Shown piece by piece: positions 22,810-22,934 of a DNA stretch of 39,376 nucleotides. The notes under the pieces were generated by a model. It did no database searches, was not told the DNA's origin, and worked only from the letters and a program-made list of their open reading frames with translations. Location: positions 1-39,376 of the forward strand of contig JAGWJT010000003.1 of the NCBI GenBank assembly GCA_028865615.1, read 5' to 3'. Origin of the DNA: Patescibacteria group bacterium. Its GTDB lineage: Bacteria > Patescibacteriota > Minisyncoccia > Phycocordibacterales > PALSA-1337. Made by a program: the position numbers and the translations under genes. The first letter of the stretch is position 1; each line of letters starts with the position of its first letter.

Positions 22810-22934
22810 AAGGGAAAGGGACATGCTCCCTCGGAAGCGTTCGGAGCTCTGCAGAGCTCCTCACTCGGTTCTCGGCGATTTTCCTGCTGGAAAATCGCCT
22901 GCGAGTGTTCCTCGAGAGCATGTTCCTTTCCCTT
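22810..22934 (-). repeat. Structured repeat element, copy B (upstream of argS)
   Basis: Outer arms 22810-22828 and 22916-22934 pair over 19 bp with one wobble. Inside are the perfect 18-bp palindrome at 22843-22860 (centre CTCTGCAGAG), a CACTCG/CGAGTG stem (22862-22867 with 22902-22907) and, within it, a 10-bp stem GCGATTTTCC/GGAAAATCGC with loop TGCT. Read on the minus strand it aligns with the folD copy (A). Confidence 0.85.

Follow-up and report, generated by a model that had tools for sequence, protein, structure and literature searches.

Three palindromic repeats (A, B, and C) in a 39,376-nucleotide stretch of a Patescibacteria genome, here called the window, are probably copies of one short palindromic element that is non-autonomous and occurs in Patescibacteria. 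This element resembles the Rickettsia palindromic elements (RPE), and its outer arms would be target flank copied by fold-back. The family is large and apparently undescribed. The initial annotation of this DNA had read the three repeats as a non-autonomous, mobile-like element for which it knew no matching description; that reading is supported, and the open-access literature yielded no description either. The result adds a large repeat family to one of the least tractable bacterial branches. It also indicates that palindromic insertion into essential genes with the reading frame kept, a feature known chiefly from Rickettsia, had a second origin in a separate group of reduced, host-dependent bacteria, and the copy-specific arms would preserve natural traces of fold-back replication across hundreds of sites.

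The coordinates first given for A, B, and C were right, and an inverted-repeat search recovered matching arms for each of them (A, 29 nt and 93% complementary; B, 27 nt and 85%; C, 22 nt and 100%). We built two covariance models, R1 from 11 copies and the broader R2 from 32 sequences. The shared architecture proposed for the three repeats was borne out as one structured repeat family, with C on the minus strand: R2, although built without C, scored all three and placed nothing else in the window above 14 bits. For this reason, a hairpin at 31737-31792 that had been taken for a partly similar relative is not a member. The similarity between A and B persisted on alignment (74% column identity, A plus strand against B minus strand). 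Folding as DNA gave z scores against dinucleotide shuffles of -9.6, -8.8, and -10.2 for A, B, and C, respectively; the z scores listed below are for folding as RNA against 200 dinucleotide shuffles.

12910..13917, plus strand: folD open reading frame with A in frame (Pfam THF_DHG_CYH and THF_DHG_CYH_C)
13623..13745, plus strand: element A, complete, in frame inside folD (R2, 113.6 bits; z, -9.3)
13623..13651, plus strand: left arm of A (inverted-repeat search); its outer part reads as native-like FolD codons (EVGA), a comparison with FolD that is suggestive only
13659..13682, plus strand: inner hairpin 1 of A, GGAATTTTCC..GGAAAATTCC type (folding, copy alignment)
13691..13715, plus strand: inner hairpin 2 of A, GCCCTGCAGGGC type (folding, copy alignment)
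13717..13745, plus strand: right arm of A, the inverted copy of the left arm (inverted-repeat search)
22810..22934, minus strand: element B, complete, between glyA (stop at 22802) and argS (R2, 83.3 bits; z, -9.5)
22908..22934, minus strand: 5' arm of B on the core strand (inverted-repeat search)
22874..22899, minus strand: inner hairpin 1 of B, GGCGATTTTCC AGCA GGAAAATCGCC (folding)
22843..22860, minus strand: inner hairpin 2 of B, GGAGCTC TGCA GAGCTCC (folding)
22810..22836, minus strand: 3' arm of B on the core strand (inverted-repeat search)
29565..29677, minus strand: element C, complete, divergent subfamily (R2, 52.4 bits, E 6e-11; z, -10.3)
29656..29677, minus strand: 5' arm of C on the core strand (100% complementary)
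29624..29646, minus strand: inner hairpin 1 of C, TTCGAGCGC GACTG GCGCTCGAA (folding, R2)
29596..29619, minus strand: inner hairpin 2 of C, GCGATGTCTC AGCA GAGAAATCGC (folding, R2)
29565..29586, minus strand: 3' arm of C on the core strand (100% complementary)

Element A splits the Pfam domain THF_DHG_CYH_C of folD, and C closely follows a recO-like gene, whose stop is at 29555. Together with two further copies (L017 and L018), C forms a divergent subfamily in which the hairpin sequences are swapped.

The family, first noted from at least three copies, extends into the rest of the source genome, the genus, and the order. Sequence searches, from which the own-genome copy counts derive, returned ∼28 covariance-model matches in the 0.71-Mb source genome, a few of which could come from the antisense strand of the quasi-symmetric core. 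BLASTN with B as the query against the same 710,699-base assembly gave 29 hits at ∼20 places; some of these matches were >90% identical along the core, and others shared the left half only. By covariance model, the element was present in 22 of 40 relatives, in 31 of the 34 genomes of the genus, and in 93 of the 297 genomes of the order (61 of 165 genera); among 286 genomes sampled throughout the phylum, only ∼2 from outside the order matched. A first genome-wide pattern was too strict and matched nothing. An armless core pattern matched 39 stretches among 84,980 genomes, and all of those with informative titles were Patescibacteria (mainly Nomurabacteria, plus Taylorbacteria, Lloydbacteria, and Giovannonibacteria), the rest being unnamed bins; R2 confirmed complete elements in nearly all 39. 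Two core patterns searched in viral contigs for phage carriage had no match.

The conserved part of the element is a core of ∼75 nt that folds into a three-way junction with two hairpins; a short stem and a purine-rich internal loop close it. In a side-by-side comparison, the order TTGAAGAACATTTCGCAGG-hairpin-CCGAGACATAGCGC-hairpin-GACGCGTGTTCTGAGG was almost constant among copies, and the junction, loops, and bulge were unchanged in order-wide copies. The outer arms (median, 22 bp; 94% Watson-Crick), in contrast, differ so much that nearly every copy has its own, yet they remain complementary (median element length, 117.5 nt; n = 166 copies). The earlier observation that the arms differ but still pair is thus given numbers: among 15 copies, the outermost 10 nt were 39% identical between copies, compared with 30% for shuffles, and 98.7% complementary within a copy. 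Among 11 own-genome copies, both partners varied in every outer pair (16 of 16), and one-sided changes were absent from the outer helix; in a genus-wide alignment of 32 copies, 44 of 45 pairs varied in both partners, and 95.7% of cells were paired. Perfect compensatory stem changes of this kind need not imply selection on RNA. The inner part of the arm (GACA..) was common to different copies in one genome (G000), which means that part of the arm moves together with the core.

Copies lie both between genes and inside them. A simple ORF rule placed 35 of 166 distinct copies within genes, ∼25 of them convincingly, and the remaining copies included 30 between convergent, 82 between tandem, and 10 between divergent genes. 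The stop codons of neighboring genes clustered within ∼30 bp of the element, with copies 0 to 30 bp past the stops. In the source genome, the in-frame host genes were folD (A), mnmA, ligA, dnaG, leuS, tgt, uvrB, and a comF-like gene, and in relatives they were secA, recG, infB, fmt, an rsmE-like gene, tgt, ligA, uvrB, and others (the names folD, mnmA, glyA, argS, and recO are Pfam based; the other host gene names were read from translated sequences). A genus-wide protein comparison covered uvrB and folD. FolD residues ∼240 to 286, which correspond to insert A, were missing in 10 relatives and in Campylobacter jejuni FolD (3p2o). Discovery through ORFs is biased toward in-frame cases, and uvrB, which was searched by protein similarity across the genus, serves as an unbiased check. 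Every occupied uvrB gene was open, without a stop, which argues that the insert is translated, as with Rickettsia palindromic elements, rather than spliced. Stop-free reading frames in intergenic cores were, in some frames, only mildly above shuffles. In annotation of Patescibacteria, the inserts will turn up as protein extensions that lack an explanation.

This placement also bears on whether the element is a functional RNA or an mRNA 3'-end element, such as a bidirectional terminator or stabilizer, selected for its fold. We regard this as improbable for the element as a whole. The junction motifs are conserved with covariation, copies follow stop codons closely, and convergent gene pairs outnumber divergent ones (30 versus 10), all of which would suit such a role. 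G-T mismatches in the outer arms exceed A-C mismatches on the core strand (47 versus 10), as expected of a folded single strand; this suggests that a folded single strand (RNA or single-stranded DNA) matters, although the copies were found with an RNA-trained model and the wobble bias could partly stem from that search. On the other hand, ∼25 copies sit in frame inside proteins, no T-tracts follow A, B, or C, presence among species is patchy, and the arms are almost purely Watson-Crick and equal to host sequence. A known structured RNA family was rejected, given that no Rfam 15 family exceeded its gathering threshold in the window or for elements at 14 loci. Of the folded RNA family that had been offered as one fit, what stands is a live alternative for the core, in view of the mismatch bias, and what fails is a match in Rfam.

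Comparison of occupied and empty sites indicates where the arms come from. The intact uvrB copy (L234) reads AGGCCTATAAAGGAGTCC (longer extract, AGGCCTATAAAGGAGTCCAAGGGTTACAAAGGCC), and the occupied copy in the same assembly (L262, the L099 element) reads AGGCCTATA-AAAGAGTCC-core-GGACTCCTT-ATAAAGGCC, with ATAAAGG right after GGACTCCTT; few of our site comparisons involve very close relatives, and the two uvrB copies of G000 may represent two strains in the bin. The first arm consists of the native K-E-S codons, and the second is their inverted copy, an exact match to the native form. At fusA (L081, in G023), the arm holds the last 14 nt of the gene, with a C terminus (AEKRKQ-stop) that is also found in G005; at recR (L085, in G008), it holds the last codon and the stop (H-stop), with a C terminus common to G000 and G046. 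The left arm at recG (L178, in G208) codes for GLV where the empty G100 codes for GLAR. Reconstructions that remove the core and right arm give plausible native ends for ligA in G017 (..EDEFRKIIG-stop; compare ..EDEFLKMIG-stop in G009) and for murA in G000 (..GADVVR-stop). A native arm with an inverted copy at several sites supports the earlier suggestion that the arms originated by inverted duplication. Neither arm was found in the infC-rpmI gap of an empty relative, which at ∼7 nt is too short to hold either. Element A alone does no more than suggest an arm origin, as the length of the native folD loop cannot be fixed. The native arm was 5' of the core in most cases, and the fusA, recR, recG, ligA-end, and murA-end sites had suggested that this polarity was strict; we rejected strict polarity because the native arm of uvrB L099 is 3'.

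These sites also speak to a different history, in which the elements are old and vertically inherited, gene conversion keeps the cores of one genome alike, the unconstrained arms drift but stay complementary through quasi-palindrome correction, and few insertions are new. Different species do carry elements at the same sites (recR-rplU, fusA, gyrA, rplL, murD, and uvrB in G000, G002, G011, G012, G014, and G042), the cores are species specific, and arm correction has left direct signs: L020, L009, and L102 are corrected quasi-palindromes in which even the conserved internal loop was overwritten into perfect complementarity. We nevertheless consider this history unlikely. At every site there are scattered relatives with an intact sequence, one of the two arms matches conserved host codons, and elements at uvrB and fusA lie in opposite orientations at the same gene, which would need separate events or inversion of the core. 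Moreover, a single genome can hold cores that are almost identical while their distal arms are unrelated, which would demand very fast arm change.

We return to an insert whose arms would be made by fold-back, for which we infer the copying step, its timing, and the mode of core movement as follows. Copies would have spread to many sites and been retained where they were least harmful, just beyond stops or in frame in tolerant protein loops. The outer arms lie outside the conserved element; host sequence would flank the core on one side, and the inverted copy of that sequence would flank it on the other. The end of the core would snap back, or the polymerase would switch template at the hairpin; 10 to 30 nt of flanking DNA would then be copied in reverse before the polymerase returned, and later fold-back events would keep the arms perfectly complementary. 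Fold-back copying of this kind would explain the native arm with its inverted copy, the variable arm lengths, the near absence of broken pairs, and the overwriting in L020, L009, and L102. Such stems are documented to arise and to be corrected through template switching (PMC8794818), which is also documented to homogenize arms and invert spacers (PMC8604942); spacer inversion would account for the two orientations of the core at uvrB. The quasi-palindrome mutations so described are alike in that fold-back creates or corrects perfect arms, but they are local, whereas here the arms flank a conserved core that is dispersed over hundreds of sites. More tentatively, integration itself might duplicate the target in inverted form, the folded core being transferred alone and its free end priming the copying of 10 to 30 nt of host DNA. 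If this were true, it would define a class of insertion by an inverted, not a direct, target duplication, widespread in Patescibacteria, with each copy sealed in a perfect hairpin of host sequence.

Among known systems, RPE come closest in behavior, as small palindromes that lie between genes and in frame in many unrelated housekeeping genes of the reduced genomes of host-associated bacteria (PMC10969869). Our element likewise falls in the range of ∼100 to 150 bp (median, 117.5 nt over 166 copies) and is inserted in frame in many unrelated protein-coding genes. It occurs in another lineage, however, and where RPE have a conserved sequence and peptide, only the core is conserved here, and the arms are inverted target copies. 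We know of no report of copy-specific inverted target copies as arms in RPE. It is by its behavior that we liken the element to RPE and regard it as RPE-like. Mitochondrial mobile hairpin elements (double-hairpin elements or RHE) similarly invade compact genomes as short hairpin-forming repeats (PMC2800124), but they are organellar, and the likeness is a resemblance only.

The REPIN-like and MITE-like readings of the initial annotation were not supported. Like REPIN/BIME with RAYT, the element is a short, dispersed, non-autonomous, and mostly extragenic repeat with two hairpins, but it has no inverted pair of one REP sequence (in alignments the inner hairpins differ and share no tetranucleotide head motif), its arms vary, and intragenic copies are frequent. 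Like MITEs (ERIC, Correia, RUP, and others), it is ∼100 to 150 bp long with inverted-repeat ends and no coding capacity of its own, but its terminal repeats are not common to copies, no target-site duplication was seen, and no autonomous parent was found among the Y1 genes, the only ones examined. At the arm edges of 166 copies, there was no excess of direct repeats of 4 to 8 nt and a weak excess of 3-nt repeats (8 versus 3.3 expected). Mobilization by a Y1 (RAYT/IS200-type) transposase is accordingly very improbable. The genome does hold one Y1 transposase flanked by its own hairpins, and the repeats are small, palindromic, and non-autonomous, which would fit such mobilization; those flanking hairpins (CCCCGCC..GGGCGGGG), however, are unlike the core. 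Across the 297 genomes of the order, Y1 and the element were independent (Y1 in 56 of 93 genomes with the element and in 126 of 204 others; Fisher P = 0.80), and the element-rich G046, G051, G168, and G302 lack Y1.

Several other palindromes were observed at the sites and in the window. Two uvrB genes occur in one assembly (G000:C28 and G000:C23), one intact and one with the element. In G017, the same uvrB loop carries a different palindrome (L252), containing GTCATTCCCGCGAAAGCGGGAAT, which we take to resemble Neisseria dRS3; this loop is, on the sequences compared, a likely hotspot for palindromic inserts. Inserts occur at the same LigA loop in three species (L087, L095, and L038), and ligA of G009 has an apparently eroded insert at that loop (SPSSPRRSVSHPASSRSTLAAG) together with an intact element elsewhere in the gene. 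Within the window, the interval from rplK to a dihydrofolate-reductase-like gene contains two adjacent palindromes (16184-16402) of another repeat family, unrelated to the first, with the core CGTGGTACCAC..GGATAACCACAAAAGCAC and roughly 20 copies in the genome. Several of these have copy-specific, near-perfect arms of 25 to 37 bp, so the arm syndrome is not tied to one core. Strong simple hairpins outside the A/B/C family lie at 21301-21359 and 31737-31792. Upstream of glyA, ∼800 nt (20756-21548) lack a convincing ORF, and this ORF-poor stretch includes a hairpin (21166-21212) that resembles a terminator and has a T run.
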